Assembly (NCBI RefSeq): GCF_008520265.1
Contig: NZ_VIQM01000087.1
Span: forward strand, 1 to 64,000
DNA: 64,000 bases
Source: Sphingobacterium cavernae
GTDB taxonomy: Bacteria > Bacteroidota > Bacteroidia > Sphingobacteriales > Sphingobacteriaceae
Direction: 5' to 3'
The notes under the pieces are model-generated. The model saw only the letters and a program-made list of their open reading frames with translations. It ran no database searches and was not told the origin of the DNA. Within the stretch, counting starts at the first letter, position 1. Each line of letters opens with the position of its first letter. The position numbers were made by a program, and so were the translations under genes. Below are positions 25,093-44,520 of this stretch, piece after piece.

Positions 25093-26103
25093 CTAAAGCT
25101 CAATTAAAGCTTTTATAACTTTATTCTCAGGCTTAAAAAACGTGTCAAATTCCTGCGCTACGCTTTCAAATTCAAGCCGATGTGTGATAAAAGTATAAGG
25201 ATATATTTTTTTTGATTTGATAGTATCCATTACGAATTGAAAATCTTGCTTTGTTGCGTTTCGACTACTCATTAAGGTTGACTCTCTTTTATGAAATTCT
25301 GGATGGCTAAAACTGAAATTGTTTTTTTGAATACCGACGAGGACGAAAGTCCCTCCATGTGCCAAATATTGAAGAGATTGTTCTATAGCTCTTAGATTTC
25401 CGGTAGCATCAAAAATAGCTGTGGGCATTTCACCTTTCGTAATTTCTTGTAGCTTTTCGAGCGGTTCATCGACTCCAACATGTATCGTATGTGCAACGTT
25501 TAATTTCTCTCTACAAAATTGTAATCTGTCTACATTGAAATCCATCACAATTACATTTGCGCCAGCAATACAACTAAATTCTATAAGTCCTAACCCTATA
25601 GGACCTGCCCCCACAACGAGTATATTTTCTCCTACCTGAACATTAGCTCTCCTAATAGCATGTGCGCTAATAGCAAAAGGCTCAACCAAAGCCAATTCAT
25701 CCAAGTCCAATCCTTGCCCTTTAATAATTAATTTGTTTGGCGCAACCATATATTCAGTCATTCCACCATCAATATGCACCCCCAACACCTGCATAGAGAC
25801 ACAACAGTTGTCCTTACCTCTCTTACATGCGACGCACCGCCCACAAGATTTGTAAGGAATTAGTGTCACATATTCCCCAATCTGAAAATTCGGATCTGTA
25901 GTTTCGACTATTTCTGCCGCTAACTCGTGGCCTAAAACTCGGGGATAATTGAAATATGGTTGTGTTCCTTCGAATGCATGTATATCTGTACCGCAAACCC
26001 CTACTCTTCTTATTCTTAATAAGGATTCTCCATCGTTTACTTTTGGTATTTCTGTTTCGTGGTATTCAAAATTATGAGGATTTTCGCATTGAAGAGTTTT
26101 CAT
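25093..26103 (-). CDS. Zinc alcohol dehydrogenase resembling L-galactonate 5-dehydrogenase (LgoD/YjjN)
   Basis: A 336-residue medium-chain dehydrogenase. VGVCGTDIHAFEGTQPYFNY and PRVLGHELAAEIV hold the catalytic zinc ligands (Cys, His-Glu). SCGRCVACKRGKDNCC holds the four-Cys structural zinc. ENILVVGAGPIGLGLIEFSC is the NAD loop. FSHPEFHKRESTLMSSRNAT and the GGMTEYM segment resemble my recollection of E. coli LgoD/YjjN, which oxidises L-galactonate to tagaturonate. It follows an SMP-30-type lactonase (28 bases) and a GH29 hydrolase, so a route sugar, lactone, acid, keto-acid is suggested. L-fuconate or another polyol or aldonate remains possible. Confidence 0.8.
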   Translation of the reverse strand: MKTLQCENPHNFEYHETEIPKVNDGESLLRIRRVGVCGTDIHAFEGTQPYFNYPRVLGHELAAEIVETTDPNFQIGEYVTLIPYKSCGRCVACKRGKDNCCVSMQVLGVHIDGGMTEYMVAPNKLIIKGQGLDLDELALVEPFAISAHAIRRANVQVGENILVVGAGPIGLGLIEFSCIAGANVIVMDFNVDRLQFCREKLNVAHTIHVGVDEPLEKLQEITKGEMPTAIFDATGNLRAIEQSLQYLAHGGTFVLVGIQKNNFSFSHPEFHKRESTLMSSRNATKQDFQFVMDTIKSKKIYPYTFITHRLEFESVAQEFDTFFKPENKVIKALIEL

Positions 26104-26131
26104 TATATAAATTTGGCTATAGTATTTTTGA

Positions 26132-27142
26132 TTATTTAAGGTTTACACGTACAATTCGACCTGTATTTGTAAGATACATGTATTTTTCATCGGCAGATAA
26201 TGCGACATTCGATACAGGACTTTTGAATCTAATTTTACCTAGAAGTTTAGCATTAGCATCAAAAATCCAAACACCACCAGGACCACTTGCCAGTACAATA
26301 TTACTTTTGGTTATTTTAAGTCCATCTGGTAAGCCTGAAGATCCATCCAATGTAGGCGTTGCATCGTAAAAAATCGTTGGCTCTTGTTTCAGATTGTTTG
26401 TATTTAATACATACCAAGTCGCACTTCGTGGATCAGAATTGCTTACAATTATTTTATTTGATTTCGGAAAAATCGCAATACCATTTGGTCTAGTCAACTT
26501 ATCCGTTAATAGGTTCAATTTTCCATCTTTTTTGAATACAAAAACACCATTAAAGTCTAGCTCCTTTGCTGGATCTGTATCATTTTGAGATGGTAAACCA
26601 TATGGAGGATCCGTGAAAAATAAATCTCCATTGGAATGGTATACCGCATCATTTGGACTATTCAATTTTGATTTCTCATAGCTATTTACTATTGTCACAT
26701 AGTTAGGTTTAGGTGATTTTAGTGAGCTATTCATACGTCCCATTTGACGATCCCCGTGTTGACAAAGCACCAAATTACCCTTCGGGTCTAACAACAAACC
26801 ATTGCTACCTGGTTCGCGCGTAGCAGCTGTTGCAGTTTCAGTATATCCACTTGGATTTAAATACAGTTCCATGCCTTTTGCTTCAGTCCATTTATAAACC
26901 GTATTGGAAGGAATTTCGGAGAATAAGAGCATTTTCTCTGACTCTACCCAAAGTGGTCCTTCTGTCCAACGCAGTCCTTCTATCAACACTTCGACCTGCG
27001 CATTGGCATTAACAATATTTTTCACCTTTTCATCCAACACTTCAAGCTCTAGTTTTTCAAACTTAATTTGCTGAGAAAATACAGGTATTTGACATGCCAT
27101 TGAGATTAAAAATGCAATAATGTATCTTCTGGTGATCTTCAT
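26132..27142 (-). CDS. SMP-30/gluconolactonase family lactonase, exported
   Basis: A 336-residue protein with signal peptide (residues 1-23, ending CQIPVFSQQ). The six-bladed propeller motifs are RWTEGPLWVESEKMLLFSE (metal-binding Glu), ATREPGSNGLLLDPKGNL, KLNSPNDAVYHSNGDLFFTD (Asn-Asp) and DGSSGLPDGLKI (Asp). These enzymes open aldonolactones using a divalent metal. Here the substrate would be the lactone of the sugar released by the neighbouring GH29 or by GH95 (L-galactono- or L-fuconolactone, inferred). It lies between the GH29 and dehydrogenase genes on one strand. Export to the periplasm is a detail any pathway model must accommodate. Confidence 0.85.
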   Translation of the reverse strand: MKITRRYIIAFLISMACQIPVFSQQIKFEKLELEVLDEKVKNIVNANAQVEVLIEGLRWTEGPLWVESEKMLLFSEIPSNTVYKWTEAKGMELYLNPSGYTETATAATREPGSNGLLLDPKGNLVLCQHGDRQMGRMNSSLKSPKPNYVTIVNSYEKSKLNSPNDAVYHSNGDLFFTDPPYGLPSQNDTDPAKELDFNGVFVFKKDGKLNLLTDKLTRPNGIAIFPKSNKIIVSNSDPRSATWYVLNTNNLKQEPTIFYDATPTLDGSSGLPDGLKITKSNIVLASGPGGVWIFDANAKLLGKIRFKSPVSNVALSADEKYMYLTNTGRIVRVNLK

Positions 27143-27198
27143 GGTAGTTTATCTTTGGTATCTTATGAAGATAGGAAAAATATTTTTTTCACGACTCA

Positions 27199-28839
27199 TT
27201 ATGTAAGTTTTAATACATGAGCAATGTCATTTTTCTGTGCATCTTGCGGCCATTCAATCTGTAAAATATCTGCATTTTGTTTGAAAACCAATGGCTTTTT
27301 ATAACCAAGTAATTCGATCTTTCTAACTTTCAAACCTTTGGATGTTGTTGTTCCCAAAGATTGAATTTTAACTTGCTTTGATTCTGGTTGACCCATTACG
27401 AAAGCATACAGAGATTTACCTTTTTGAGTAAAACGAAAATCTTCAGCAACAAGCGGCTTTCCTCGACCTTCATTGAATCCTTGAGCATGCAATTCTGGAG
27501 CATGTGCTATGGCTGAGCCTTCACCAAAGGTGTGCCACGGCCTAGTTCCTATGATTGCTTCACTATTTAACTGCATCCAGTTAGCAATACCTTCTACCGT
27601 TGCTCGTGCTTTGTCATCAACAGAACCATCTCCACGCATTGGAACACTTAATAAGAGATTGCCATTTTTGCTGACTACATCCACCAACATATGGATGACC
27701 GTTTTTGCTGACTTATAATGCCCCCTATCGTATACTCGACGATCATAATGCCACGATCCTATACAGGTACATGTCTGCCAGGGCTCGGGTTCTATGCGGT
27801 TACTTTGACCTCGCTCGATATCCCAGATCATACATTTACGCTGTTGCTCATCCAGTATTTTTCCGGTAATGACAGCTTCTAACTTACCTTTATTGTCCTT
27901 TATACTTTTATTGTAGTAATGGGCAGCAATTTCCAAACCCACATTACTCACAGGCCATAATGGCAACGCCGTATCGTCAAAGTAAACTACATCAGGATTA
28001 TAATTATCTATTAATTCTATCGTTCGATATTTGAAATTTTTACAGTATTCATCGGTTGGTACGCTAACGCCTGTATTTACGTCCCAATGCCATTGCTCGT
28101 GCACTTTGTGATCATTCAAGCTGTCTTTGCTCAATTCATGATTTTGCGCATAGAGTTCTTGTGGATCATATCCTTCCCACCATGTTCCTTTACCATCTTC
28201 TTTTTTTAATTTTCCATCGTAAGGCACACCTTGAAGAGGACCATTTTTATCCGATCGCTGAGCCGTCTCGTACCAAGTCCATGCATGTGCGGCATGAACA
28301 CTTACACCAAATCGCAATCCGCGTTTACGTGCAGCCTTTTCCCATCCTCCAACGATATCCTTCTTAGGGCCAAAATTTAGACTATTCCATTTGTGGTGAC
28401 TACTCTTGTATAAATCCAAATTATCGTGATGATTTGCCAAGGTCATGAAATATTGTGCTCCTGTGCGCTTGTATAGATCCATCAATTCTTCTGGATTCCA
28501 TTTTTCGGCTTTCCACAAATTGATTACATCTTTAAAACCAAACTTTGAAGGATGTCCATATTTCTCGACATGGTATTTGTACTGATCAGAACCTTCTTGA
28601 TACATTCCTCGCGCATACCAGTCGCCACGCTCGGGCTGACATTGCGGTCCCCAATGCGCCCATATACCGAATTTTGCATCACGAAACCACTTTGGTACAT
28701 TATACTCTTCCAGCGATTTCCAAGTCGGATTAAATGGAACTTTTGTCCAATTGCTAATGGTTGTAGCAGCAAATGACTTACTTAAAAATAAGGTTGGGAT
28801 TATAGCTCCGATAGATTTTATTACACTCCTTCTATTCAT
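27199..28839 (-). CDS. GH29 alpha-L-fucosidase family hydrolase
   Basis: A 546-residue enzyme exported through an N-terminal signal (RRSVIKSIGAIIPTLFLSKS, somewhat Tat-like, cut near AFA). GH29 features are WFRDAKFGIWAHWGPQCQPE, AQYFMTLANHHDNLDLYKS and NPDVVYFDDTALPLWP, where the first Asp of the FDD pair is the expected nucleophile. NGNLLLSVPMRGDGSVDDKA is the typical end of the barrel. The family cleaves alpha-L-fucosides, and some members also act on alpha-L-galactosides. It is the first gene of a three-gene unit with the lactonase and LgoD-like dehydrogenase, diverging from the AraC-type regulator across a 247-base control region. Confidence 0.88.
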   Translation of the reverse strand: MNRRSVIKSIGAIIPTLFLSKSFAATTISNWTKVPFNPTWKSLEEYNVPKWFRDAKFGIWAHWGPQCQPERGDWYARGMYQEGSDQYKYHVEKYGHPSKFGFKDVINLWKAEKWNPEELMDLYKRTGAQYFMTLANHHDNLDLYKSSHHKWNSLNFGPKKDIVGGWEKAARKRGLRFGVSVHAAHAWTWYETAQRSDKNGPLQGVPYDGKLKKEDGKGTWWEGYDPQELYAQNHELSKDSLNDHKVHEQWHWDVNTGVSVPTDEYCKNFKYRTIELIDNYNPDVVYFDDTALPLWPVSNVGLEIAAHYYNKSIKDNKGKLEAVITGKILDEQQRKCMIWDIERGQSNRIEPEPWQTCTCIGSWHYDRRVYDRGHYKSAKTVIHMLVDVVSKNGNLLLSVPMRGDGSVDDKARATVEGIANWMQLNSEAIIGTRPWHTFGEGSAIAHAPELHAQGFNEGRGKPLVAEDFRFTQKGKSLYAFVMGQPESKQVKIQSLGTTTSKGLKVRKIELLGYKKPLVFKQNADILQIEWPQDAQKNDIAHVLKLT

Positions 28840-29086: not shown

Positions 29087-29947
29087 ATGAAAACCCAAGA
29101 AAGCATTAATGATTTAGACTTTATCTTATTAAATATTGGATATGCTGAACACAATGCCGATTGGAACTGGAAAGGAATAAGTAGTCCTTTTGTTAGATTA
29201 CATTTTGTGGTCAAAGGTAAAGCAAAGATTCATCTAAGCAATGAAAGTTTCGATCTGCAAGAAAATCATATGTATTTAACCCCCTCCTATGTTCAACACA
29301 GTTATGATTGCGAGGGCGAATTTCATATTTTCTACATTCACTTATACGAAAATCTAGATAGAAAAGCCAGCATTTTTGATAGGTATAAGTTCCCTTTTGA
29401 AATACCTGTTGACGAATTACTTGTCATGCTTATTCATAGATTGTATTCCTTAAATCCAGCACGGGAATTAAAGAAGTACGATCCCACAACGTATGACAAT
29501 TCCCAAGAACTCATCAAAAATTTATCATTAAATTACAATAATTCAGATGCTTCGAAATTAGAGACGCAATCCATCATCAATATAATACTATCTCGATTTT
29601 TGAATTGTTCGATTATTAAAACAGAAATACAAGATCAAAGAATCCATAAAGTCATTACCTATATTCATGAACGTATTGAGCATACCATAGCAATTGAAGA
29701 ATTAGCTGATTTGGCCAATTTGACTAAAGATCATTTGATTAGACTGTTTAAAAAACAAATGGGTTGTACGCCTGCAAAATACATTAATCAAAAGAAAATT
29801 GAAAAAGCACAGTTACTTATTTTGATGGAAAACATCAGTTTAAAAAATGTCGCTTATAAATTAGGCTTTGAAAACATTTCCTATTTCATCCGGTTGTTTA
29901 AGAAAATCACGGGTGAAACCCCAAGTACTTACCGTAAAAAACAATAA
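29087..29947 (+). CDS. AraC-family transcription regulator of the xylan locus
   Basis: A 286-residue regulator. The N-terminal cupin sensor spans about residues 1-150 (SSPFVRLHFVVKGKAKIHLS, ENHMYLTPSYVQHSYDCEG). The C-terminal part has the double helix-turn-helix: IAIEELADLANLTKDHLIRL followed by FKKQMGCTPAKYINQKKIEK, and ISLKNVAYKLGFENISYFIR followed by LFKKITGETPSTYRKK. Such one-component activators in Bacteroidota respond to sugars. It is the only local regulator in the sugar locus and diverges from GH29, so control of GH29 and perhaps of the other xylan units is likely. A possible -7 box TACTTTTA ends only 6 bases before the ATG. Confidence 0.92.
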   Translation: MKTQESINDLDFILLNIGYAEHNADWNWKGISSPFVRLHFVVKGKAKIHLSNESFDLQENHMYLTPSYVQHSYDCEGEFHIFYIHLYENLDRKASIFDRYKFPFEIPVDELLVMLIHRLYSLNPARELKKYDPTTYDNSQELIKNLSLNYNNSDASKLETQSIINIILSRFLNCSIIKTEIQDQRIHKVITYIHERIEHTIAIEELADLANLTKDHLIRLFKKQMGCTPAKYINQKKIEKAQLLILMENISLKNVAYKLGFENISYFIRLFKKITGETPSTYRKKQ

Positions 29948-30751: not shown

Positions 30752-32479
30752 TTAAAGACTTATATCATTGCTTTTGGTTGCGTACATACCGATAAGCGCA
30801 CCAGTGAAGCCTCCTGCAATATTTGTTGACAAAATATCACCTGAAACTGTACCACCTAGATTTTCAAATGCTTTGCCATTTTGGGAGAAATTGAATTTAT
30901 AATTATCGCCATCAGCAGTTACCTGCAATTTGACGGCTGAATTATCTTCCAACTTTTTCGAAGCCAACACTTTAGTTTCACCTTTTTCAGTTCTTGCTAA
31001 TACTAAATAGTTTTCATTTCCTGATTTAGTAATTCCAAACACATAGTTGAAGTTTTCACTTTGCAAACAAGTAAGGCCTGCTAAATCTTTTTCAGAAGAA
31101 GGTGTATAATGCATTTCAACTTCTGCAGCAAAACTATTGTGTTGTTGTCTATAAAATAAGGCAGAAATTGGTTTCTTTTCTTTGATAGATACTTCTAAAG
31201 GTTTGATCCGTACGCCATCTTTCGATAATTCTGAAAAAGGCTCCCTTGGACCACGCAATGCCACCCATCTGTGATCAAATGCATTTCCGTCAAATTTATC
31301 CGTAAAAACGAAATTTCCATTTGGAAAATAATCTCCCGAATTCGTTTTGTTTTCTACACCAGAAGGCATAGGAATTGAAGGCTTCAACACTTCTAATCCG
31401 CCTTGAAATACTGGAAATTCTCCAGCCCAATCAACAGGCAACATAAATGTTTCTCGACCTGTATTTACACGATTTTTTTCGTTTGGACGAATTGCCAAAA
31501 ATACACTATACAATCCGCCATCAGGACCTTCGACAATATCCGCATGTCCAGCCCATTCTACAGGATTCGGACGGCTTTTGTCTAAGTGTCTTTGCGTCAA
31601 AATAGGATTTTTTGCTGCTGGAACATATGGACCACGAGGATTGTCACTACTAAAAATGACTTCGCTGTGATCATCTGCCGTTCCGCCTTCCGCACACATC
31701 AAATAATATTTGTTATTTCTTTTGTAAATATGTGGTGCTTCAATCCAAATCGGCTTTTTGGATATATTTACCCCGCCATCAACAATGATTTTGTCTGTAC
31801 CAGCAATTACTTGGTCTTTTTCTACATCATAATCCCATATCTTGATTACACGATGACCGGTATACAATTCTTTACCCGGATCCGGGGCATCATTATGAAT
31901 AACGTAAGCTTTGCCATTATCATCGAAAAATAAAGAAGGATCAATCCCTTGAAAATCAAGTTTAATTGGGTCAGACCAGTTTCCTTCTTTAGGATCTTTA
32001 GTTTTCACCACCATATTGCCGATACCACCAGCAAATTGCGTAGTAATCATGTAGAACGTATCGTTATTTGGATTGTAACGAATAACAGGTGCATAAATGC
32101 CTTCACTAATCCCCGAAGTATAGACTTTGAGCTGAGATTCTCGATCCAAAACGTGTCCAATCTGTTTCCAATTTACCAAATCATTGGAATGGAAAATTGG
32201 CACACCCGGAAACATCGCAAACGATGAATTTACTATGTAATAATCATCTCCCTTTCGCGTGATACTGGGATCGGGATAGCAACCTTGCAATATTGGACTG
32301 TAAAACTGTCCTGCTTGTAGCGGATTTTGCTCGTAAATTTTATCCTTTCCTTCATAAGTAAAACTTGTGAAAAGCGGTTCACCTAATTCGGTGTTTTTAT
32401 TTTTACCTTCTTGGCAACTCATAAATATGGTAGTCGCTAGTATAGGTAATGTCTTCAATAATTTTCCAAAATTGTTCAT
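30752..32479 (-). CDS. GH43 beta-xylosidase/arabinofuranosidase, lipoprotein, with C-terminal beta-sandwich
   Basis: A 575-residue enzyme. Residues 1-22 form a lipoprotein signal (LATTIFMSCQEG). The GH43 five-bladed propeller starts at GCYPDPSITRKGDDYYIVNS with the catalytic base Asp. FPGVPIFHSNDLVNWKQIGH is typical of the beta-xylosidase branch; FQGIDPSLFFDDNGKAYVIH holds the pKa-tuning Asp, and KKPIWIEAPHIYKRNNKYYL the acid Glu. Residues about 390-575 form the beta-xylosidase C-terminal concanavalin-like domain. It should release xylose or arabinose from xylo-oligosaccharides at the cell envelope. It is the last gene of the GH115-to-GH43 unit. Confidence 0.88.
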   Translation of the reverse strand: MNNFGKLLKTLPILATTIFMSCQEGKNKNTELGEPLFTSFTYEGKDKIYEQNPLQAGQFYSPILQGCYPDPSITRKGDDYYIVNSSFAMFPGVPIFHSNDLVNWKQIGHVLDRESQLKVYTSGISEGIYAPVIRYNPNNDTFYMITTQFAGGIGNMVVKTKDPKEGNWSDPIKLDFQGIDPSLFFDDNGKAYVIHNDAPDPGKELYTGHRVIKIWDYDVEKDQVIAGTDKIIVDGGVNISKKPIWIEAPHIYKRNNKYYLMCAEGGTADDHSEVIFSSDNPRGPYVPAAKNPILTQRHLDKSRPNPVEWAGHADIVEGPDGGLYSVFLAIRPNEKNRVNTGRETFMLPVDWAGEFPVFQGGLEVLKPSIPMPSGVENKTNSGDYFPNGNFVFTDKFDGNAFDHRWVALRGPREPFSELSKDGVRIKPLEVSIKEKKPISALFYRQQHNSFAAEVEMHYTPSSEKDLAGLTCLQSENFNYVFGITKSGNENYLVLARTEKGETKVLASKKLEDNSAVKLQVTADGDNYKFNFSQNGKAFENLGGTVSGDILSTNIAGGFTGALIGMYATKSNDISL

Positions 32480-32507
32480 GTAACTGGTGGTTTTATGTTT
32501 AAAGCAA

Positions 32508-34448
32508 TTAATAGATTACAAATCCTCCGTTAGATTGTATGGTAACTTCGTAAAGCCCATTCTTATCTAATTTGATATTCTTTATTGTCGGATTCTTATT
32601 GATATCATCATTGATCATGTTGAGGTTTTTAGTTTTAAGCATGGAGATGTCTATTTTGATTTTCATACTTTCCTTTTTGGCATTTACACCTGCTATGTAC
32701 CATTTATCTTTGTGTCTTCTTGCCAATATCGCATATTGTCCTGGATAACCATCAATGAATAATGTCTCATCCCAAGTAGTAGGAACTTCCTTCATGAAAT
32801 CTATAAGGAAGGATTCTGCCTCGGTCAAATTATTAGGAGTCAATGCAAAAGGCTGCACAGGATTTTGAAATAATACAGCTGTTGCCATTTGAAATGCATC
32901 CGTGGTAAGTCTCTTATTTCTGCTTTTGTTGTCTTTGGTCAAAAAGTCGTTTAAAAACACACCACCAAATTCCATACTGCCTACAGCATTACGAATGAAT
33001 GGATGTAAAGTCGCAAAAATAGCTTCATTATCTCGTGCATATTGCGAGAATATCAACATTTCTGACGCTAATACAGCTTCACTTCCCACAAAATTTGGAT
33101 ACAATCTTTCCCAACCTCTTGGGAACGTAGCACCATGAAATATAATCATTAACCCATGATCATTCGCATCAGATAATATATCTTCATATAGGCGCATGGT
33201 TTCTTGTTTGTCTCCACCAAAAAAATCAACTTTTAATCCTTTAGCACCTACTTTTTGAAGCCATTTCATTTCTTTTTTACGCGCAATAGATGTACTCATA
33301 AAATTTCGAGGGCCTTGAGGTGCATCGTTGAAAGTTCCATTGGAATTGTACCATAAAAACACATCTACATTTTTGGAGTTAGCATATTGAATCAATTTCT
33401 CCATTCTATCTCTTCCAATATTTGTGTCCCAAAGTGCATCAATTAATATATAAGGATAGTTTAAAGCCAATGCTAAATCAATATATTTTACTTGATCATC
33501 CCAGTTCATACTTTGGTCTTGCCATACAATCCAGCTCCATGTAGATTTACCAAACTTGTAGTTTTGTGATGGGGCATACAATGGATCAACCACATCAAAA
33601 GGAATTGTAGTCTTGACAATCGGACTTAAGTTATCACCAACAGTTATAGTTCTCCACGGCGTAGCACCAGGTAAGGAAAGTGCAGCTCCCGTACTGCCAA
33701 ATCCATTATTTTGCTCCTGCTGCGGATAATTAACATAAAAAACACCATCAGCTGAAATTTCGCTTAAGTGCGAAGCGCAATACGCACTGGTCACACCAGT
33801 CTCTGATAATAAGACCCATCCATTATCTTGAACCTTAAACAAACTCGGAAAAACAAAACCAAACTGACTTTTTGCCGAAGCTATTGGTGCATCAATACTA
33901 TACCCACTTTCATAACTAACAGCTGTACGCGCGAAACCAGTCATTGGTTTCATCATCGTAGAGATAAATGCAGTTGTGCTCGTTGGAAATTTGTAGCCCG
34001 TGTTCTCTGTATGTATTACAACGCTACGCGTTTCTTTCCAAGTTGGTAATTCATAGCGAAATGCAATATCATTATTGCTTACTTGAAAAATCATAGCGAA
34101 AGATTTTTTATCTGCATTTGTAAAATTTGTTGTCAAGGCATTAGCGTGATAGCTAATGTTCGACACCTTGATTCTATCTTGCGAATATTGCTTTTCTACA
34201 ACCGAATTTTTACTATTTTCGAATGCTAAACCGCTTATAAAATCTCCTTCATTAGATTTAAAACCTAATGGTGATTTTTCTAAAATAGTCTTACCTTTAA
34301 GAGTTACACTGTAAAATGCTTTATTGGCATCAACATGTATTTCTACACGCAATTGCTTATTTGGACTTTCTACGGTGGCTACCTGCGCAATTAACAAGTA
34401 ATTGCTAGCAAGCAACATAAAAGTCAATATATGACGAAGTCTTAGCAT
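32508..34448 (-). CDS. GH97 glycoside hydrolase, retaining type
   Basis: A 646-residue secreted enzyme (signal MLLASNYLLIAQ). The N-terminal super-beta-sandwich domain runs to about residue 290 (NDIAFRYELP, SGYSIDAPIASAKSQFGFVF). The TIM barrel has YILIDALWDTNIGRD, GAKGLKVDFFGGDKQETMRL and ANDHGLMIIFHGATFPRGWE, then NFVGSEAVLASE. The Asp of KVDFFGGD is placed as the nucleophile of retaining GH97 members (alpha-galactosidase-like); the inverting alpha-glucosidase branch has Glu residues instead. So an alpha-galactoside or similar side-chain sugar is more likely than starch. It is in the xylan operon 4 bases after GH30. Confidence 0.87.
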   Translation of the reverse strand: MLRLRHILTFMLLASNYLLIAQVATVESPNKQLRVEIHVDANKAFYSVTLKGKTILEKSPLGFKSNEGDFISGLAFENSKNSVVEKQYSQDRIKVSNISYHANALTTNFTNADKKSFAMIFQVSNNDIAFRYELPTWKETRSVVIHTENTGYKFPTSTTAFISTMMKPMTGFARTAVSYESGYSIDAPIASAKSQFGFVFPSLFKVQDNGWVLLSETGVTSAYCASHLSEISADGVFYVNYPQQEQNNGFGSTGAALSLPGATPWRTITVGDNLSPIVKTTIPFDVVDPLYAPSQNYKFGKSTWSWIVWQDQSMNWDDQVKYIDLALALNYPYILIDALWDTNIGRDRMEKLIQYANSKNVDVFLWYNSNGTFNDAPQGPRNFMSTSIARKKEMKWLQKVGAKGLKVDFFGGDKQETMRLYEDILSDANDHGLMIIFHGATFPRGWERLYPNFVGSEAVLASEMLIFSQYARDNEAIFATLHPFIRNAVGSMEFGGVFLNDFLTKDNKSRNKRLTTDAFQMATAVLFQNPVQPFALTPNNLTEAESFLIDFMKEVPTTWDETLFIDGYPGQYAILARRHKDKWYIAGVNAKKESMKIKIDISMLKTKNLNMINDDINKNPTIKNIKLDKNGLYEVTIQSNGGFVIY

Positions 34449-34451
34449 ATA

Positions 34452-36011
34452 CTATTTTTTAATTTTAATGGACAAAATAGACTTTGGATTAATTGTTAAT
34501 GATACAGCTTGGTTATTTTTCGTAACATTAACAGAAACCGTTTGCATATTCTTAGTAGCAGTAGTTTCCACGCCAGTCACGCTCGTAAAAGCTTGCGGTA
34601 ATTCAAATTGTACGGTTGGAATCAAAGCACTACCCTGATTTTGTATGATTAATGTATAATCCAAAGTTCCTTCATAAGCAGTTACTAGAATATCATTATT
34701 ACTTACTATTTTATCAACAGCAATTCTCCTACGGTCTGTGGCATACTGCGCATAATGCGATAAAACGTATCCTCGTGGAAGCAATTCTCCTTTTACAGTG
34801 CCAAACTCACCATCGCCCAACATGCTGTAGTGTCTTTTGAGGTACCACCAGATATAGGCATTGAAATTCGCTTCCATACAACCATGTAGCTCTTTTGCGA
34901 ATATCAGCGCGTCATTCCAACTCCAGTCATTAGCTGAATTGTTATTCATCAAATGTTCGGTCATCCAAATTTCCTTATTGTGTTGGCGTGCTAGCGGATA
35001 ATCTCCTATTCCCCCACCGTATAAGTGTGTACCTATAATGTCCAAATGTTCACGCGCTATCGGATCATTTAAAGTAGGATCTGTATACTCTTTTTTGAAA
35101 TTGACTGCTTCCGCGGCAATAACTTTCACCTTAATATCCTTACCGTGATTTTTTATAAAATTCAAAATTTGCTGTCCTGTCCATACACAAGCATCATATT
35201 CAGGATCCCAATCTGGTTCATTTTGAATAGACACAGCCTCAATAGTAACCCCATTTGCAGCCATGTAATCTACAAAAGCATTTAAATGCTGTGCATAATC
35301 CGCATAATATTCGGGCAACAAATAACCACCATTACCTCCACCTTGTTGTTTACTACTCTTCATATGTGCCGGTGGAGACCAAGGTGACGCAAATATTCTA
35401 GCGCCTAAAGATTGTGCTTTTTGTGCTATTGCTAAGTCTCTATTCCAATCGTTTGAATTGGGATAAATCATCATTCGCAACATTTTATAGCCAAGTCCAT
35501 TTGGTCCATACAATCTGTCTATTTCAGCCACGGTCAATTGATTTCCGCCTTGCCATAATGCTGGATTTAACATACCGCCAAAACCCGTAATCTGTTGATA
35601 CGAAGTAGAAGGTTTTACTTGCAATACTACAGGAGGCTTGGTTGACTGCTTTATAGTAATTTGCTTAGATTCGCCTGATAAAATATTTTTAAGTTGAATG
35701 GATTGTATGCGTTCCGTATTGGTGTTATTCTCGGTATAATTAAATTGTACACGCGTTTGACTACTGTGGTTAAAACTTCCACCTTTTAGAAAATTAAAAC
35801 CTGATAAAAATCCTTCAGAAGGGATTATTAACTCCCATTCGGTATTGCTCCAGATTATTGTTAATGCGCCTGAACCACCTTGGGCATCCAAAAGTATTTC
35901 TTCCTCTTTAACTTTTAAATCTACTTGAGGAGTTTCATCCTCGGATTTAGCACAGCCAACAATTAGGGCAAACAGTATAAATAATTTAAATATGAAATTA
36001 AGTCTTTGCAT
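34452..36011 (-). CDS. GH30 xylanase (glucuronoxylanase-like) with N-terminal BACON domain, lipoprotein
   Basis: A 519-residue protein. Lipobox LIVGCAKS puts lipidation at Cys20. Residues about 35-128 look like a BACON domain (EILLDAQGGSGALTIIWSNT, SGESKQITIKQSTK). The GH30 barrel then gives YQQITGFGGMLNPALW, ARIFASPWSPPAHMKSS, AVSIQNEPDWDPEYD (acid/base Glu265) and KEIWMTEHLMNN (nucleophile Glu352). A C-terminal beta domain closes it. The sequence suits the subfamily that cuts xylan next to glucuronosyl branches; whether the arginine that reads the uronate is present was not checked. It is probably surface-anchored and starts 7 bases after GH67. Confidence 0.87.
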   Translation of the reverse strand: MQRLNFIFKLFILFALIVGCAKSEDETPQVDLKVKEEEILLDAQGGSGALTIIWSNTEWELIIPSEGFLSGFNFLKGGSFNHSSQTRVQFNYTENNTNTERIQSIQLKNILSGESKQITIKQSTKPPVVLQVKPSTSYQQITGFGGMLNPALWQGGNQLTVAEIDRLYGPNGLGYKMLRMMIYPNSNDWNRDLAIAQKAQSLGARIFASPWSPPAHMKSSKQQGGGNGGYLLPEYYADYAQHLNAFVDYMAANGVTIEAVSIQNEPDWDPEYDACVWTGQQILNFIKNHGKDIKVKVIAAEAVNFKKEYTDPTLNDPIAREHLDIIGTHLYGGGIGDYPLARQHNKEIWMTEHLMNNNSANDWSWNDALIFAKELHGCMEANFNAYIWWYLKRHYSMLGDGEFGTVKGELLPRGYVLSHYAQYATDRRRIAVDKIVSNNDILVTAYEGTLDYTLIIQNQGSALIPTVQFELPQAFTSVTGVETTATKNMQTVSVNVTKNNQAVSLTINPKSILSIKIKK

Positions 36012-36018
36012 TATCGTA

Positions 36019-38064
36019 TTAATTATGGTGTTTCATAGGGAGTTTTATTTTCTTTAAATCTTCTAATTCATGTACCGGACGTTCGATATGATACGGTATT
36101 GGCATTTTTGAAAATGTCTGGAAATACAGTAGACATGCGTCCTTCCACCAAACTGCATCACGGCTTTGAATTTTTAATCTACTCTGCACGTGCTTGAATC
36201 TGTCTTTATCTACATAAGATTCCATGCTATCCCATACACGTTGAAAATCCCTCACCTCTTGTACACCCTTGTCATAGTGCAGACAAAGCTCATCCCACAA
36301 TGTATTGCCACTTTTCATTTTATAATTCCACGGCACGTGATGAAACCAGAGTATTAAATTTTCGGGACAAGACTTAATGTCATTATATTGCGTGCGCAAA
36401 GGTTCATTGTATTGTGCTATGGCATTACTGCCACTTGTTGTTCTATTAAAACCTACACCAACAGAGTCCGCATTGTGGTAATACCAAGGCATCCAATCGG
36501 CTCTTCCCCCTGGCATATTACCCCAAGGTTCTGGTCCATAATGATGGTCAAACGCAAAAATGTGATGTAAGCCCAACGGCATCATATAATTCACTACTGC
36601 TTCACGCGATGCCATCATCATATCCGTTAATTCATTCACGAATTTGGATTCATTTGTGAAAGTCAATCCAAGCCATTCTTTTGCTATTTCTTCAGATGAT
36701 AGCTGATGATTCCACGCTAATTTGCCGAAAGCATACCAATTCGCTTGCCCGAAATGGTGACCTGTCCAGTTTGTATCTTCTCCAATATTCGCAACACCCG
36801 CTACAGCAGTTTTAGTAATTTTTCGAAGTGAACCATCTGTTATTTTGGCTACAGTAGAACCTTTTCCATCTGAGTAGGTGTCGCTGTCAAATGTTTCTTT
36901 GAATAAGGGTGCTAAATATGCCAAGTGATTAGAAAAACCTAAATATTCTTGAGTAATCTGAAATTCAATCATTTGCGCAGTATTCTTCATCGCTCCAAAC
37001 AATGGCGTAAAAGGCTCTCTCGGTTGAAAGTCTATAGGTCCATTTTTAATTTGAATGATTACATTATCTCGAAATTGTCCATCCAATGGTACAAACTCAT
37101 GATAAGCTTGTTTAGCGCGATCTTCTTTAGTAGGATTATATACGAATGCACGCCACATTATTGTGCCACCATAAGGCTTAATCGCATCAGCAAGCATATT
37201 CGCGCCATCAGCATGCGTACGTCCATAATCTTGTGGACCAGGCTGACCTTCAGAATTTGCTTTAACCAAAAATCCTCCAAAATCTGGAATGATTTGATAA
37301 ACTTCTTTTACTTTATTCTTCCACCACAATTGTACGTCCTTATTCAATGGATCCGAATTCTCTAAGCCACCGATAACTTTTGGAGAAGAAAAATTAATGG
37401 ATAGATACACTTTAATACCATATTTTCTAAACACGCTTGCAATAGCTTTTACTTTTTCCAAATATGCAGTTGTCAATATTTGAGGTGATGCGTTCACGTT
37501 ATTTAGAACAGTAGCATTAATACCAATAGATGCATTTGCTCTAGCGTAAGCTTCGTAGCGAGGACTCAATACTTGGGGTAATTCATCCCATTTCCAAAGT
37601 GAATAACCAGCGTAACCACGCTCTACCGTACGGTCTAGATTATCCCAATGGTTTAAAATACGAATATCATAAGATGGAATTTCTTCTACATTATAAGCCC
37701 TTAATTCATTACCAACCGCTTGTTTTTGCAATAAATGGTAAGCACCATATAGAATTCCTGCAGGTTGACTTCCTATAATTTGTAGCTTGTTGCCAGCGCT
37801 TGAAATTTTAAAACCATCTTTAATCCTTGTCAACTTTCGATCTAAGACCAATTCAATCGAATTTCCTTTCCAATATTCGTCCAACTCCTTCTTCGCTAAA
37901 AGAACAATTTCGTCTTTAGATTTCGTTTGAACAGTTCGTTTTGAAGAAATACCTGGCGATACTTTTTCAAAGCGTAACCACAATGAACTTCCATCTTCAG
38001 CAAATGTTGAAAGGCAGATAAACGTGAAAAGAATACACAAAATTTTAGTTCTGAGCAAAATCAT
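36019..38064 (-). CDS. GH67 alpha-glucuronidase
   Basis: A 681-residue exported enzyme (signal LCILFTFICLSTFAED). GH67 features are an N-terminal domain with IIGSQPAGILYGAYHLLQKQ, the barrel pieces RILNHWDNLDRTVERGYAGY and GGFLVKANSEGQPGPQDYGR (catalytic acidic residues region), TIMWRAFVYNP and LEFQITQEYLGF-like FQITQEYLGFSNHLAYLAP. The C-terminal helical part includes ILWFHHVPWNYKMKSGNTLW. It removes (4-O-methyl)glucuronic acid from the non-reducing end of short xylo-oligosaccharides. It follows GH43_1 by 107 bases and is complementary to GH115, which works on internal branches. Confidence 0.93.
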   Translation of the reverse strand: MILLRTKILCILFTFICLSTFAEDGSSLWLRFEKVSPGISSKRTVQTKSKDEIVLLAKKELDEYWKGNSIELVLDRKLTRIKDGFKISSAGNKLQIIGSQPAGILYGAYHLLQKQAVGNELRAYNVEEIPSYDIRILNHWDNLDRTVERGYAGYSLWKWDELPQVLSPRYEAYARANASIGINATVLNNVNASPQILTTAYLEKVKAIASVFRKYGIKVYLSINFSSPKVIGGLENSDPLNKDVQLWWKNKVKEVYQIIPDFGGFLVKANSEGQPGPQDYGRTHADGANMLADAIKPYGGTIMWRAFVYNPTKEDRAKQAYHEFVPLDGQFRDNVIIQIKNGPIDFQPREPFTPLFGAMKNTAQMIEFQITQEYLGFSNHLAYLAPLFKETFDSDTYSDGKGSTVAKITDGSLRKITKTAVAGVANIGEDTNWTGHHFGQANWYAFGKLAWNHQLSSEEIAKEWLGLTFTNESKFVNELTDMMMASREAVVNYMMPLGLHHIFAFDHHYGPEPWGNMPGGRADWMPWYYHNADSVGVGFNRTTSGSNAIAQYNEPLRTQYNDIKSCPENLILWFHHVPWNYKMKSGNTLWDELCLHYDKGVQEVRDFQRVWDSMESYVDKDRFKHVQSRLKIQSRDAVWWKDACLLYFQTFSKMPIPYHIERPVHELEDLKKIKLPMKHHN

Positions 38065-38171
38065 AAGTATGGTAGATTATAAGGTTTAACTTTCTATTGG
38101 TCGAGAAAGTGAAATTGTATAAGAGTAGAAAAAGCAAGAATGACTTTCTTTTTCTACTTTATTTTTGATTG

Positions 38172-39137
38172 TTATTGACCTTCGATGGTAATTATCTTAC
38201 CATCATTATCATATTGCAGTTCAATCACCTTCATACTTCTCAACCAAGTTTTACCACCTGAAGGAACTGAATCGTGATAGAATAAATACCATTTATCTTG
38301 ATAGTTAAGGATGCTATGATGCGTAGTCCAACCCACGACTGGCGTCAAGATCACACCTTGGTATGTGAATGGCCCATACGGATTATCACCGACAGCGTAA
38401 CACAATAAATGCGTATCACCTGTAGAATATGAAAAATAATACTTTCCATTGTATTTGTGCATCCACGAAGCTTCGAAAAAACGTCTTTCTGTATCTCCTT
38501 GTTTCAGTGGATTGCCTTCCTCATCCAGAATCAAAACATCTTTTGGATCTTCTGCAAATTGCAACATATTATCCGTCAATTTTGCTACTTTTCCTGTCAA
38601 TGCATCTTCATCAAAATGTGGTAATACAGAGCCATCAATCAATTTATTGTTTCTATAATATTGCAACTGTCCGCCCCAAATTCCTCCAAAATAAAGATAG
38701 TACGAACCATCGTCGTCTTGAAATGCACATGGATCAATACTGTAACTTCCTCTTATCGGATCATCTTGAGGTACGAAAGGTCCCTCTGGCTTATCACTTA
38801 CCGCAACACCAAGACGAAATACATCTGTTTTATCTTTCATCGAGAAATACATGTAATATTTCCCATCCTTGTGTGCTACATCAGAATCCCATAATTGTCG
38901 TCCAGCCCAAGCGATATCTTCCACGCCTAGCACTTTACCGTGATCTGTAACCTCACCATTTATATCATCCATCGAAAAAACATGATAATCCTTCATATTG
39001 AAATGATCACCATTGTCGTTTTCTTCTACACCACTTTCCCAATCGTGAGACGGATAAATATATATTTTACCATCAAATACATGGGCAGATGGATCCGCCA
39101 TAAAATCACTTGGATACAAATATCTTCCTTTACTCAT
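38172..39137 (-). CDS. GH43 (subfamily 1-like) beta-xylosidase, no signal peptide
   Basis: A 321-residue single-domain enzyme beginning SKGRYLYPSDFMADPSAHVF, with the base Asp in ADPSAH. WAGRQLWDSDVAHKDGKYYM and SYSIDPCAFQDDDGSYYLYF carry the second Asp, and ERRFFEASWMHKYNGKYYFS the acid Glu. VVGWTTHHSILNYQDKWYLF holds the calcium-site His. There is no export signal, so it should work in the cytoplasm on xylobiose and small oligosaccharides brought in by the MFS symporter two genes upstream. The length is the minimal GH43 propeller. It starts 28 bases after the GH10 stop. Confidence 0.88.
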   Translation of the reverse strand: MSKGRYLYPSDFMADPSAHVFDGKIYIYPSHDWESGVEENDNGDHFNMKDYHVFSMDDINGEVTDHGKVLGVEDIAWAGRQLWDSDVAHKDGKYYMYFSMKDKTDVFRLGVAVSDKPEGPFVPQDDPIRGSYSIDPCAFQDDDGSYYLYFGGIWGGQLQYYRNNKLIDGSVLPHFDEDALTGKVAKLTDNMLQFAEDPKDVLILDEEGNPLKQGDTERRFFEASWMHKYNGKYYFSYSTGDTHLLCYAVGDNPYGPFTYQGVILTPVVGWTTHHSILNYQDKWYLFYHDSVPSGGKTWLRSMKVIELQYDNDGKIITIEGQ

Positions 39138-39165
39138 TACTTAATTGCTCTTCAAATATTAATAC

Positions 39166-40311
39166 TTATTTCTTACCCAATTTGATTAGATCTTGGATAA
39201 ATGGTTTTGCTTGATAGTTACGATCGAATAATAATGGGTAATCAGTTCTGCCTGGCACAGGAAATCCGTTTTTCCAAGAATCACCATCACCTACACCCCA
39301 AAGTGTTACACGATCAATTTTATCTTTATGCTTTAGGTAAAGTGAAAAGAATTCAGCGTATCTGTTACCTAATTCTTTCATTTTCTCCTCTGGCAAACCA
39401 TCAACGTATGGATTCAATTCCTTGCGGTACGCTACTCTATCGCTAATTTCAGCTCCCATGTTTGGACGCGCATTTGGCAGAACCGAAATTTCCATTTCTG
39501 TAACCATCACTTGTACGCCTAAACTTGAAAATCTCAAGATTGAATTTTCAGTTTCTTGAATTGTAGGGTAATCCAAACCATTGTGCTCTTGCATACCTAT
39601 TCCATGCACTTTTACACCGCTATCAATAACTTTTTTTACCGCTCTGTAGATTCCTTCTCTTTTTGCGGGTAGAGCTGTAGAATAGTCATTATAATACAAT
39701 TGAGTTTTTGGATCTGCTTCGTGTGCAAACTGGAATGCCAACTTGATGAAGTCCTCACCAATTATTTGGTAAAATTTACTTTTGCGGTATTCACCATTAT
39801 CCAAAATAGCTTCATTAACAACATCCCAGCCGTGAACTCTGCCTTTGTATCTGCCTACAACAGCGTGGATGTGTTTGCGCATGCGTTCGATCAAAACTTC
39901 TTTAGACACATCATTTCCATTCGCATCTTTGAAAAACCAAGATGGTGCCTGAGAATGCCAAATCAACGTATGTCCTATTATTTGCATACCGTGTTTTTCA
40001 CCATATTCGACAAACTTGTCAGAATCTTTGAAATTGAAAACACCTTCTTGCGGCTGCATATTCTCACTTTTCATACAGTTTTCCGCAACAATAGAATTGA
40101 AATGCGTCTCAATTACTTGTTTAGCCTTATCATTTCTTTCCCAAATCTGATTTAGGTTTAATGCTGTACCAATATAAAATTTGCCTTTATAAGCATCTTT
40201 TAATGTACCACTCGAAGTCGTAGTGTTATTTACTGTCTGTGACTTCGTCGATGAACATGCAACAAATACAGATGTCACACTCACCAATAGGATTGTCTTT
40301 ATTATATTCAT
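39166..40311 (-). CDS. GH10 endo-1,4-beta-xylanase, lipoprotein
   Basis: A 381-residue enzyme. The signal ends at lipobox VFVACSST (Cys19), so it is membrane-anchored, probably at the outer membrane. The GH10 barrel gives NSIVAENCMKSENMQPQEGV, IIGHTLIWHSQAPSWFF, VHGWDVVNEAILDNG (acid/base Glu167) and VQVMVTEMEISVLP (nucleophile Glu272), with VTLWGVGDGDSWKNGFPVPG near the end. It cuts the xylan backbone into oligosaccharides. It sits between the symporter and the cytoplasmic xylosidase, a compact cut-import-finish cassette. Confidence 0.95.
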   Translation of the reverse strand: MNIIKTILLVSVTSVFVACSSTKSQTVNNTTTSSGTLKDAYKGKFYIGTALNLNQIWERNDKAKQVIETHFNSIVAENCMKSENMQPQEGVFNFKDSDKFVEYGEKHGMQIIGHTLIWHSQAPSWFFKDANGNDVSKEVLIERMRKHIHAVVGRYKGRVHGWDVVNEAILDNGEYRKSKFYQIIGEDFIKLAFQFAHEADPKTQLYYNDYSTALPAKREGIYRAVKKVIDSGVKVHGIGMQEHNGLDYPTIQETENSILRFSSLGVQVMVTEMEISVLPNARPNMGAEISDRVAYRKELNPYVDGLPEEKMKELGNRYAEFFSLYLKHKDKIDRVTLWGVGDGDSWKNGFPVPGRTDYPLLFDRNYQAKPFIQDLIKLGKK

Positions 40312-40322
40312 GTAATATGTTA

Positions 40323-41735
40323 TTATTTAGAGTTTCTAGATTCTATTTCAAGGTTTATTTTATCGATTACATCATCTTCCAATTCATATTTGGATATGAT
40401 AAACATAGCCACGACAAGAAGAATTGCAGGTATTACGACTACCAACCACAATATGCCCTGTTGTGCAAATGCAGATTGTTCCAATACATTATCTTTATCA
40501 AATGCAACGTATGCTAATACCAATCCTGGTACTACACCGCCCAGCGCCATACCCGCTTTGTAAAATATACCTGTCAGTGCATTCACTATACCCGATATTC
40601 TTTTACCCGTTTTATATTCGCCATATGATATTACTTCAGGAACGAGCGCCCACATGTATCCCGTTGCCACAATAATTCCAGTTGATTTGATAAATTGTGC
40701 AACAAATACAAGCCATATTTGTGATTTTAGAGACGGAACTACAGATACAATGTAGAGCATGACCATTCCAATAATTGCAACAGAAAGGAACACATAGAAC
40801 ATTTGTTTCTTACCGATTGCTCTCTTTATAGCTGGAACTAATGGCATAAAAATAAATGCGGGAATAGATCCCAATGCCATAAAATAAGGTAACATCTCTG
40901 GCGATTGAATATTATAAATCATATAATACGATCCAGCCGAATTTCCAATAGCCATCATCGCAAACGCTGTAATGAAGAAAAATGCTAGAACACGTAATGG
41001 GCCATTGTGTTTAAATTCTACCCATAAATCAGATACCTTCACATTTTCGGTGTCTTTTTCGTCCATGATTACGCGCTCTTTTGTTTTGGTATAACAAAAG
41101 ATTAACAATGCTAAACCTACAAGTGCATAAATTGTCATCGTGATAAACCACGCTTCTCCAGAAGCACTTGAATTTATTTTGCCATCTGGCGAAAAATATT
41201 GAACGACAATTGGCACTCCATATCCAACGGCCAAGCCTCCAAGATTAGCCATAAACATACGCGTCGATGTCAACTTCGTAATCTCATCGGTATCACGCGT
41301 CAACGACGCATTCAGAGCACCGTAAGGAACATTGATCAATGTGTAAAGCATCGACAAACCTACATACGTGATGTACGCATAAGTCAATGACCCCGAAAAC
41401 CCATTCCAAAAACATAGTATCGCAAAACCAGTCAGTGGTATACCTCCCAACACTAAATACGATCTGTATTTTCCCAATTTGGGATTTCCCTTATCTACTA
41501 GTGCACCAACAATTGGATCCCATATCACGTCTATAATACGAACAACTAGGAACATCACACCTGCAGCCGCCGCTGATATTCCAAATACATTGGTATAAAA
41601 TATCAGCAAATACATGGACACAGTTTGGTAAATTAGATTTTGGGCCAAGTCCCCAGAGCCAAAACCTATTCTTTGAATTTGCGAAAGCTTATAAAAGCCT
41701 TTTGATTCACTTTTTACTTGTGCATCTTGATTCAT
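40323..41735 (-). CDS. MFS/GPH-type oligosaccharide-cation symporter (XynT-like)
   Basis: A 470-residue inner-membrane carrier with twelve predicted helices. Family marks are QRIGFGSGDLAQNLIYQTVS, VRIIDVIWDPIVGALVDKGN (the GPH signature after helix 2), GKYRSYLVLGGIPL, YVGLSMLYTLINVPYGALNA and EVISYGEYKTGKRISGIVNA. These symporters take up di- and oligosaccharides or xylosides with Na+ or H+. Here it is placed between GH115 and GH10, so xylo-oligosaccharides are the natural candidate. No SusC/SusD pair is in the window, which makes this the only obvious sugar importer of the locus. Confidence 0.9.
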   Translation of the reverse strand: MNQDAQVKSESKGFYKLSQIQRIGFGSGDLAQNLIYQTVSMYLLIFYTNVFGISAAAAGVMFLVVRIIDVIWDPIVGALVDKGNPKLGKYRSYLVLGGIPLTGFAILCFWNGFSGSLTYAYITYVGLSMLYTLINVPYGALNASLTRDTDEITKLTSTRMFMANLGGLAVGYGVPIVVQYFSPDGKINSSASGEAWFITMTIYALVGLALLIFCYTKTKERVIMDEKDTENVKVSDLWVEFKHNGPLRVLAFFFITAFAMMAIGNSAGSYYMIYNIQSPEMLPYFMALGSIPAFIFMPLVPAIKRAIGKKQMFYVFLSVAIIGMVMLYIVSVVPSLKSQIWLVFVAQFIKSTGIIVATGYMWALVPEVISYGEYKTGKRISGIVNALTGIFYKAGMALGGVVPGLVLAYVAFDKDNVLEQSAFAQQGILWLVVVIPAILLVVAMFIISKYELEDDVIDKINLEIESRNSK

Positions 41736-41758
41736 TTCTCAATTTTATAATTGGTAAT

Positions 41759-44254: not shown

Positions 44255-44327
44255 TACGGAAATTAAGTTTGTTTTAAAATTCAGTTTATAAAAGGTTACA
44301 GCAATCCTGCTTTGTTTATACTGTAAA

Positions 44328-44357
44328 AGTACCAGTCAAATAAAATAGCAAATGGTA
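44328..44357. promoter_or_regulatory. Inverted repeat GTACCA-N18-TGGTAC upstream of GH115
   Basis: GTACCA at 44328-44333 faces TGGTAC at 44352-44357. The site is 74-103 bases upstream of the GH115 start and could be an operator half-site pair. The core GTAC is also present in the TAGTAC words near the AraC-type operator at 29 kb. No promoter boxes were found that I would defend. Confidence 0.35.
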
Positions 44358-44421
44358 CATATGTATTATTTAAGAATAAAAATGTTTAAAAAATTGATTT
44401 GATAGCTCAAATCCAACATTT

Positions 44422-44438
44422 ACGTTTTAATAAAACGT
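44422..44438. promoter_or_regulatory. 17-base palindrome upstream of GH115
   Basis: ACGTTTTAATAAAACGT has two perfect 8-base arms around a central A. It is followed by TTTTTG on the plus strand. It lies between the GH115 start and the terminator of the next unit. It may be a repressor or activator site, or a weak plus-strand terminator; sequence alone does not decide. Confidence 0.4.
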
Positions 44439-44457
44439 TTTTGTCTATAAAAGAAGA

Positions 44458-44492
44458 GAGGGGAATATTTGCTTGCGCAAATAAATCCCCTC
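44458..44492 (-). terminator. Terminator hairpin after the large GH43 gene
   Basis: GAGGGGAATATTTGC (44458-44472) pairs with GCAAATAAATCCCCTC (44477-44492) with one bulge and a TTGC loop. On the minus strand it lies 29 bases after the stop of the 697-residue GH43 gene and is followed by TCTTCTTTT. It marks the end of the second transcription unit. Confidence 0.7.
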
Positions 44493-44520
44493 AACCTTCA
44501 CGATACAATATATTACCTAA

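Follow-up and report, generated by a model that had tools for sequence, protein, structure and literature searches.

In a soil Sphingobacterium, three minus-strand genes encoding, in order, a GH29 glycosidase, an SMP-30 lactonase and a zinc-dependent dehydrogenase lie beside a large group of genes for the digestion of xylan, which raises the question of whether the trio serves the release and oxidation of a sugar from xylan side chains and, if so, which sugar this would be. The window analysed is a stretch of 64,000 nucleotides from Sphingobacterium cavernae (contig NZ_VIQM01000087.1). The three-gene unit, proposed at 25093-28839 in an initial annotation, was borne out by the open reading frames and their Pfam domains (Table 1); the intergenic gaps are 28 bp (dehydrogenase/SMP-30) and 56 bp (SMP-30/GH29). 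The evidence described below makes it probable that the trio is a reduced and rearranged form of an operon by which Bacteroidota use L-galactose, and that, next to a glucuronoarabinoxylan locus, it feeds an oxidative route.

Table 1. Features of the window discussed in the text.
Feature	Position	Strand	Basis
LgoD-type zinc-dependent dehydrogenase, 336 aa	25093..26103	-	Pfam ADH_N 84 bits + ADH_zinc_N 76 bits
SMP-30/gluconolactonase-like protein, 336 aa, Sec-type N-terminal signal sequence	26132..27142	-	Pfam SGL 96 bits (cut-off 26.3)
GH29 exo-glycosidase, 546 aa, twin-arginine-like signal, predicted exported	27199..28839	-	Pfam Alpha_L_fucos + Fucosidase_C
AraC-family regulator, probable sugar-responsive regulator of the trio	29087..29947	+	Pfam HTH_18 + AraC_binding
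Glucuronoarabinoxylan utilisation locus containing GH95	30752..63558	-	Pfam/NCBIfam
GH95, predicted xylan-directed alpha-L-galactosidase	57265..59718	-	similarity to BACOVA_03438 (4UFC)

The dehydrogenase is the most informative member of the trio. It shares 42% identity with E. coli LgoD (YjjN, L-galactonate oxidoreductase), scoring 274 bits compared to 167 bits for RspB and 113 bits for Tdh, and 31% identity with Bvu0222, the second known L-galactonate dehydrogenase (PMC12632266). In a tree of 47 sequences it shares a 33-row clade with LgoD (support 95/93) whose sister is the Bvu0222 group; the threonine (Tdh), sorbitol-type and RspB dehydrogenases all fall outside. The window motif FSHPEFHKRESTLMSSRNAT aligns with FSDPEFHKKETTMMGSRNAT of LgoD, and the PEFHK and SRNA parts of this motif set the LgoD group apart from RspB, YdjJ, Tdh, IdnD and GatD among 14 aligned sequences. 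The protein also carries the structural-zinc cysteines CGRCVACKRGKDNC and a Rossmann glycine motif, GAGPIG...MD, with an Asp following the glycines. The resemblance to LgoD that the initial annotation had reported, including its quoted motif, is thus upheld, and the clustering with sorbitol or threonine dehydrogenases that it had named as a refuting outcome did not occur. By these sequence comparisons the enzyme is LgoD-type, not threonine- or sorbitol-type; a threonine-, idonate-, galactitol-phosphate- or RspB-type dehydrogenase was ruled out by the scores and the tree. Its predicted activity is that of an NAD+-dependent L-galactonate 5-dehydrogenase with D-tagaturonate as product, and its position in the tree, bracketed by two characterised L-galactonate dehydrogenases, counts in favour of L-galactose. 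Counting against this is the best NCBIfam model, PRK10083 (NF007489), with which the protein scores 202.7 bits, below the curated cut-off of 376, so strict membership of that model is not claimed. In E. coli the symporter gene lgoT is found near lgoD but, unlike in the window, no hydrolase or lactonase gene adjoins lgoD.

The xylan locus that the SMP-30 and dehydrogenase genes flank includes xylA and a xylulokinase-like gene, and members of the SMP-30 family include aldonolactonases; the two proteins could therefore be imagined to act on xylono- or arabinonolactone, or on a polyol, in pentose oxidation tied to the xylan locus, with GH29 an unrelated passenger. This is very improbable, as the dehydrogenase lies outside the idonate, galactitol-phosphate and threonine groups of the tree and its linkage to GH29 recurs: among the genomes listed, the two genes are no more than 10 kb apart in 21 of the 72 family genomes that have both, where about 0.4 would be expected. 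So high a frequency shows that these genes did not become neighbours by chance and that GH29 is not a passenger.

For the GH29 protein, the nearest solved structures are those of the exo-alpha-L-galactosidase of Bacteroides plebeius, BpGH29 (7snk/7ljj; 282 bits, around 39% identity), followed by a structure at 185 bits; xyloglucan fucosidases fall in the BpGH29 cluster as well (PMC11189522), and BpGH29 itself differs from the window enzyme in its context, which is porphyran with a sulfatase and not xylan. The window protein is accordingly predicted to be an alpha-L-galactosidase and/or an alpha-L-fucosidase, a specificity that cannot be read from sequence. Upstream, an AraC regulator gene is divergent from the GH29 gene, a pairing that recurs across the neighbourhoods examined, and its product probably regulates the trio in response to sugar. 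Scans for sigma-70-type promoters gave fewer matches than in shuffled sequence and were set aside.

Relatives of both proteins are found together in Bacteroides (Phocaeicola) vulgatus, where BVU_0219-0222 encode an L-galactose dehydrogenase, a lactonase, a fucose-type permease and an L-galactonate dehydrogenase. There (locus L245) the gene order is GH29 - AraC - AKR - amidohydrolase - FucP - zinc dehydrogenase, the GH29 being 57% and the AraC protein 46% identical to those of the window. The proposed chemistry is the same in both, with the zinc dehydrogenase ending the route, but the window trio is without the AKR, the COG3618 lactonase and the permease, and instead has an LgoD-type dehydrogenase, an exported SMP-30 protein and an adjoining xylan locus. 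The conversion of L-galactose to D-tagaturonate by these same reactions has been characterised in B. vulgatus (Bvu0219/0220/0222) and in Luteolibacter (PMC12632266). Therefore, while the oxidative L-galactose route suggested by the initial annotation stands with respect to the LgoD-type enzyme and the candidates for other steps, the idea of an undescribed route was too strong, since the route is characterised and relatives of the window GH29 and AraC flank the B. vulgatus operon. The L-galactose pathway itself is known; what is new is this variant and its linkage to xylan.

In Luteolibacter LG18 the genes lguABCDEF specify a dual L-glucose/L-galactose pathway, with an AKR-type dehydrogenase (LguA) and no GH29 or SMP-30 reported (PMC12632266). 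From its description this pathway runs through L-galactonate dehydrogenase, then tagaturonate reductase, then altronate dehydratase, and five relatives of the window family keep the three together. For the tree, LguD was sought in 388 Verrucomicrobiota genomes, with no match to the published N-terminus among the 30 loci listed. A UxaB-like (tagaturonate reductase) gene lies beside the dehydrogenase in 8 of the 81 neighbourhoods of its family, and a UxaA-family dehydratase is also present in 5 of these 8. Three of the eight UxaB-like genes were scored with the tagaturonate reductase model NF002969 (cut-off 359 bits), giving 449, 582 and 592 bits, all above the cut-off; a Massilia neighbour, at 219.6 bits, falls below it.

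The principal alternative is that the trio is an L-fucose operon, in which GH29 would be an alpha-L-fucosidase, the dehydrogenase would oxidise L-fuconate or one of the intermediates formed when L-fucose is degraded, and L-galactose would be incidental. Most characterised GH29 enzymes are fucosidases, and orthologous dehydrogenases occur within clusters of FucP, SDRa, FAH, amidohydrolase and SDRb (for example L137, L158, L251 and L338); FAH, an L-fucose pathway gene, accompanies the dehydrogenase in seven clusters, which counts against L-galactose. However, the tagaturonate reductase found beside the dehydrogenase in 8 loci would not be needed for L-fuconate, the closest solved GH29 is an exo-alpha-L-galactosidase, the tree places the dehydrogenase between L-galactonate dehydrogenases, and this genome already has, on contig C14, a complete L-fucose oxidative operon without a zinc dehydrogenase. 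We regard the alternative as unlikely.

That same contig supplies candidates for the steps that an L-galactose operon would still require. It encodes FucP, a fuconolactonase-type amidohydrolase and an L-fucose-dehydrogenase-type SDR (406 bits against an L-fucose dehydrogenase cut-off of 300) that is closest to the Burkholderia-derived structures 4gkb/4gvx; the B. multivorans enzyme of these structures oxidises L-galactose too (PMC10746189). A C1-dehydrogenase candidate is therefore encoded elsewhere in the genome, as had been supposed at the outset. The cluster-associated type of AKR was rejected for this role, as it had no match in the genome at 1e-20, a result that concerns this type of AKR alone and that counts against the L-galactose operon. 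Contig C30 carries a tagaturonate reductase gene (530 bits) followed by a UxaA-family gene and a UxaC-like gene, so that the suggested genome search yields candidates not only for L-galactose dehydrogenase and tagaturonate reductase but also for altronate dehydratase; together with the amidohydrolase, these provide candidates for the route as far as KDG.

It is also conceivable that one enzyme set takes both L-fucose and L-galactose to their aldonates, the zinc dehydrogenase being the L-galactonate branch and L-fuconate passing through the dehydratase of C14. SDR-type L-fucose dehydrogenases do accept L-galactose, and mixed clusters exist, such as L157 with UxaA-like, SDRa, FAH, amidohydrolase, AKR and zinc dehydrogenase genes. 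Such dual use, in which co-regulation of C14 and the trio is only conjectural, is quite improbable as a separate account, and would go together with the L-galactose operon without contradicting the core of that explanation.

In the L-galactose operon as we envisage it, GH95, and probably also the exported GH29, would act in the periplasm to remove terminal residues of alpha-L-galactose and perhaps of alpha-L-fucose. After uptake of the sugar, its oxidation at C1 and the opening of the resulting lactone would most likely fall to the SDR and amidohydrolase of C14; the window dehydrogenase would oxidise L-galactonate at C5 to D-tagaturonate, and the UxaB and UxaA-family enzymes of C30 would convert this to altronate and then KDG. 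The exported SMP-30 protein may hydrolyse an aldonolactone outside the cytoplasm, letting the aldonate be taken up.

Of this scheme, the gene content, the protein families, the phylogeny, the synteny and the occurrence of the downstream genes are observed; the substrates and the co-regulation are inferred, and the role of the SMP-30 protein is the most conjectural of all. This protein is a predicted periplasmic aldonolactonase whose best PDB relatives are the putative gluconolactonases 3e5z and 3dr2. Its gene follows GH29 only in one Sphingobacterium clade (G000, G305, G053 and G122), and hardly any related cluster of GH29 and the dehydrogenase contains it; its product is exported, while the dehydrogenase is cytoplasmic. 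Both facts count against the explanation that we favour. More distant Sphingobacterium relatives adjoin unrelated genes, so the idea that SMP-30 belongs to the conserved pathway was rejected; it is a clade-specific addition. As this exported lactonase lies outside the conserved set, the trio is unproven as a self-contained pathway. That SMP-30 performs a true step, with L-galactose oxidised to the lactone and hydrolysed in the periplasm, then imported as L-galactonate for the LgoD-type enzyme, is doubtful; if true, the first half of L-galactose catabolism would take place in the periplasm and be devoted to the side chains of xylan.

The presence of GH95 in the same locus, at 57265-59718, was confirmed by Pfam. 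Over 795 residues this protein is 54% identical to BACOVA_03438 (4UFC), an enzyme that freed exclusively L-galactose from corn xylan (PMC4491172); the score is 972 bits, as against 643 for the runner-up, 7kmq. By this similarity it is an orthologue-like match of a xylan alpha-L-galactosidase. Thr370, which contacts O6, is present in the window enzyme, but a Thr is also found in the strict fucosidase XacAfc95 (PMC8245568) and in 20 of 20 GH95 sequences examined; it is therefore not diagnostic of L-galactosidases, and a Thr/His rule was dropped as proof. The surrounding locus encodes GH43, GH97, GH30, GH67, GH10, an MFS transporter, GH115, esterases and further GH43 enzymes, as well as XylA, a xylulokinase and transketolase halves. 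Bacteroides ovatus PUL-XylL likewise combines GH10, GH43, GH115/GH67, GH97 and an orthologue-like GH95; it differs in that no L-galactonate dehydrogenase or GH29 is listed there in the passages of PMC4491172 considered. GH95 lies nearby in 18 of the 81 dehydrogenase neighbourhoods, and a second LgoD-type copy in this genome, on contig C88, is, like the first, in a locus with GH95.

In the portions of the literature considered, the fate of the L-galactose released by GH95 alpha-L-galactosidases of xylan loci is left untraced; the window locus and its relatives would join this release to catabolism of the sugar. Furthermore, a widespread group of Bacteroidota GH29 proteins, annotated as alpha-L-fucosidases and linked to AraC and L-galactonate/fuconate genes, may in part be alpha-L-galactosidases.

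The three genes named in the initial annotation are present as open reading frames on the minus strand at the positions it gave, separated by 56 bp between GH29 and SMP-30 and by 28 bp between SMP-30 and the zinc dehydrogenase. The GH95 gene that it placed in the same locus was found among the glucuronoarabinoxylan genes. Just beyond the window edge (locus L285) lie pairs of SusC/SusD-like genes together with a long protein resembling a sensor, assigned by similarity to other loci and from sequence starts only. The nearest named match of the GH29 protein, from Sphingobacterium bovisgrunnientis, is 99% identical. A metallo-beta-lactamase-fold gene is split between two frames, which change near 30290; its intact counterpart in a near relative (L284:8568-9248) is about 94-95% identical, and the window copy is either a pseudogene or a sequencing error.

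Features of the window discussed in the text
Feature	Coordinates	Strand	Remarks
AcrB-type pump	5781-10103		fused to outer-membrane efflux domain, one 1440-aa protein
IS110-type transposase	16622-17665		adjoins the following run
Gene run	17752-21746		SBF-family transporter, flavin monooxygenase-like protein
Zinc dehydrogenase	25093-26103	-	open reading frame
SMP-30/SGL	26132-27142	-	open reading frame
GH29	27199-28839	-	open reading frame
AraC-family gene	29087-29947		divergent from GH29
Metallo-beta-lactamase fold	29988-30660	+	between AraC and first GH43
Glucuronoarabinoxylan locus	30752-63558		GH43, 97, 30, 67, 10, 115, esterases, GH95, xylA, xylulokinase-like, transketolase halves

Among the E. 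coli paralogues, the window dehydrogenase scored highest with the L-galactonate oxidoreductase LgoD (274 bits, 42% identity), followed by RspB (167), YdjJ (127), Tdh (113), IdnD (96) and GatD (91). In a maximum-likelihood tree of 47 sequences, weakened by long branches to the E. coli proteins, LgoD falls inside the clade of the window dehydrogenase and its Bacteroidota and Verrucomicrobiota relatives (support 95/93), and a Bacteroidaceae clade with Bvu0222 of Phocaeicola vulgatus is its sister (92/83). RspB and then the remaining paralogues lie outside both, so that this comparison, proposed earlier, groups the protein with LgoD and leaves threonine dehydrogenase (Tdh) outside. PEFHK and SRNA residues set the LgoD group apart from the remaining paralogues in a 14-sequence alignment, and the residues previously quoted as LgoD-like are among them. 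LgoD is annotated as an L-galactonate dehydrogenase, and PMC12632266 cites BVU_0222 as another and BVU_0219 as L-galactose dehydrogenase. As two characterised enzymes bracket it in the tree and both act as L-galactonate dehydrogenases, the window enzyme is most parsimoniously an L-galactonate 5-dehydrogenase, a prediction from sequence that is probably correct.

The window GH95 is 54% identical over its length to BACOVA_03438, the Bacteroides ovatus xylan alpha-L-galactosidase, which released L-galactose as the only sugar from corn xylan (PMC4491172); a GH95 threonine formerly held diagnostic is not so (PMC8245568). The window GH29 is nearest to the B. plebeius exo-alpha-L-galactosidase BpGH29. 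Since xyloglucan fucosidases fall into the same sequence cluster as BpGH29 (PMC11189522), the window GH29 is predicted to be an L-galactosidase and/or L-fucosidase. Beside this GH29 group there is often a rhaM-type mutarotase gene (L069:1580-1984 and about 15 of 76 GH29 loci; L182:12581-12907), which at some of these sites separates AraC from GH29; the window has no copy, and a relative lies in the L-fucose operon of contig C14.

Dehydrogenase orthologues occur in 170 of the 301 family genomes sampled. In the 81 neighbourhoods analysed, the genes within 6 kb of the dehydrogenase included GH29 (25, a count biased because some loci were fetched via GH29), AKR (23), FucP-type permease (23), GH95 (18), COG3618-type amidohydrolase (16), L-fucose-dehydrogenase-type SDR (16), UxaB (8) and FAH (7). 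By an unbiased measure, GH29 and the dehydrogenase are at most 10 kb apart in 21 of 72 genomes with both, where about 0.4 would be expected. The three UxaB-like neighbours scored were all above the tagaturonate reductase cut-off; tagaturonate is the product of L-galactonate 5-oxidation. In eight other loci of the family (L151, L153, L155, L317, L319, L322, L324, L330) GH127, DUF5703, an L-fucose-dehydrogenase-type SDR and then an LgoD-type gene follow in fixed order.

The P. vulgatus gene order is GH29, AraC, AKR, amidohydrolase, FucP-type permease and zinc dehydrogenase. BVU_0220 has reportedly been characterised enzymologically as an L-galactono-lactonase (Hobbs et al. 2014). The P. vulgatus gene order agrees with the published four-gene operon of BVU_0219 (aldo/keto reductase), 0220, 0221 (fucose permease) and 0222 (annotated sorbitol dehydrogenase) (PMC4555090). 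The P. vulgatus GH29 and AraC are 57% and 46% identical to the window proteins; the window thus retains hydrolase and regulator of this system, while the P. vulgatus dehydrogenase is of the Bvu0222 type and that of the window of the LgoD type.

In G000, G305, G053 and G122, which are related Sphingobacterium genomes, GH29 is followed by the SMP-30 gene. The G122 genome matches S. bovistauri; there the pair comes after the xylan operon and shares its strand, some 300 bp beyond a GH43 gene, and it is neither preceded by an AraC gene nor followed by a dehydrogenase. Within this clade, then, SMP-30 goes together with GH29 and the xylan locus; remoter relatives (about 50-60%) adjoin unrelated genes, which places it outside the conserved pathway. 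The mismatch raised in the initial annotation, an exported lactonase with a cytoplasmic dehydrogenase, persists, as the SMP-30 signal sequence indicates a location outside the cytoplasm. Either the lactone is formed in the periplasm by a putative further dehydrogenase, or the protein acts on another substrate; the role proposed for SMP-30 is less probable than not.

The genome search suggested earlier gave a uxaB-like gene, in a uxaB-uxaA-uxaC-like set on contig C30, and an L-fucose-dehydrogenase-type SDR on C14; for the cluster-type AKR there was no match in this genome at 1e-20. The C14 run, with FucP, a UxaA-family dehydratase, two SDRs, FAH, an amidohydrolase and an AraC gene, is a non-phosphorylating L-fucose pathway lacking a zinc dehydrogenase. 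The C14 SDR scores above the NCBIfam threshold for L-fucose dehydrogenase and is closest to the B. multivorans enzyme 4gkb/4gvx, which reportedly oxidises L-galactose too (PMC10746189). Contig C88 carries a second LgoD-type gene, 50% identical, amid GH95, GH127, DUF5703 and other hydrolases; its product (L147:9466-10479) has lost most structural-zinc cysteines (KGIDNASKMGKPNC versus CGRCVACKRGKDNC) and retains the group residues.

The core of the original proposal, that L-galactose is broken down oxidatively in connection with the use of xylan, is the best-supported reading and a moderately probable one. The chemistry of the route is already known; new here are the gene arrangement, the dehydrogenase type and the linkage to xylan.
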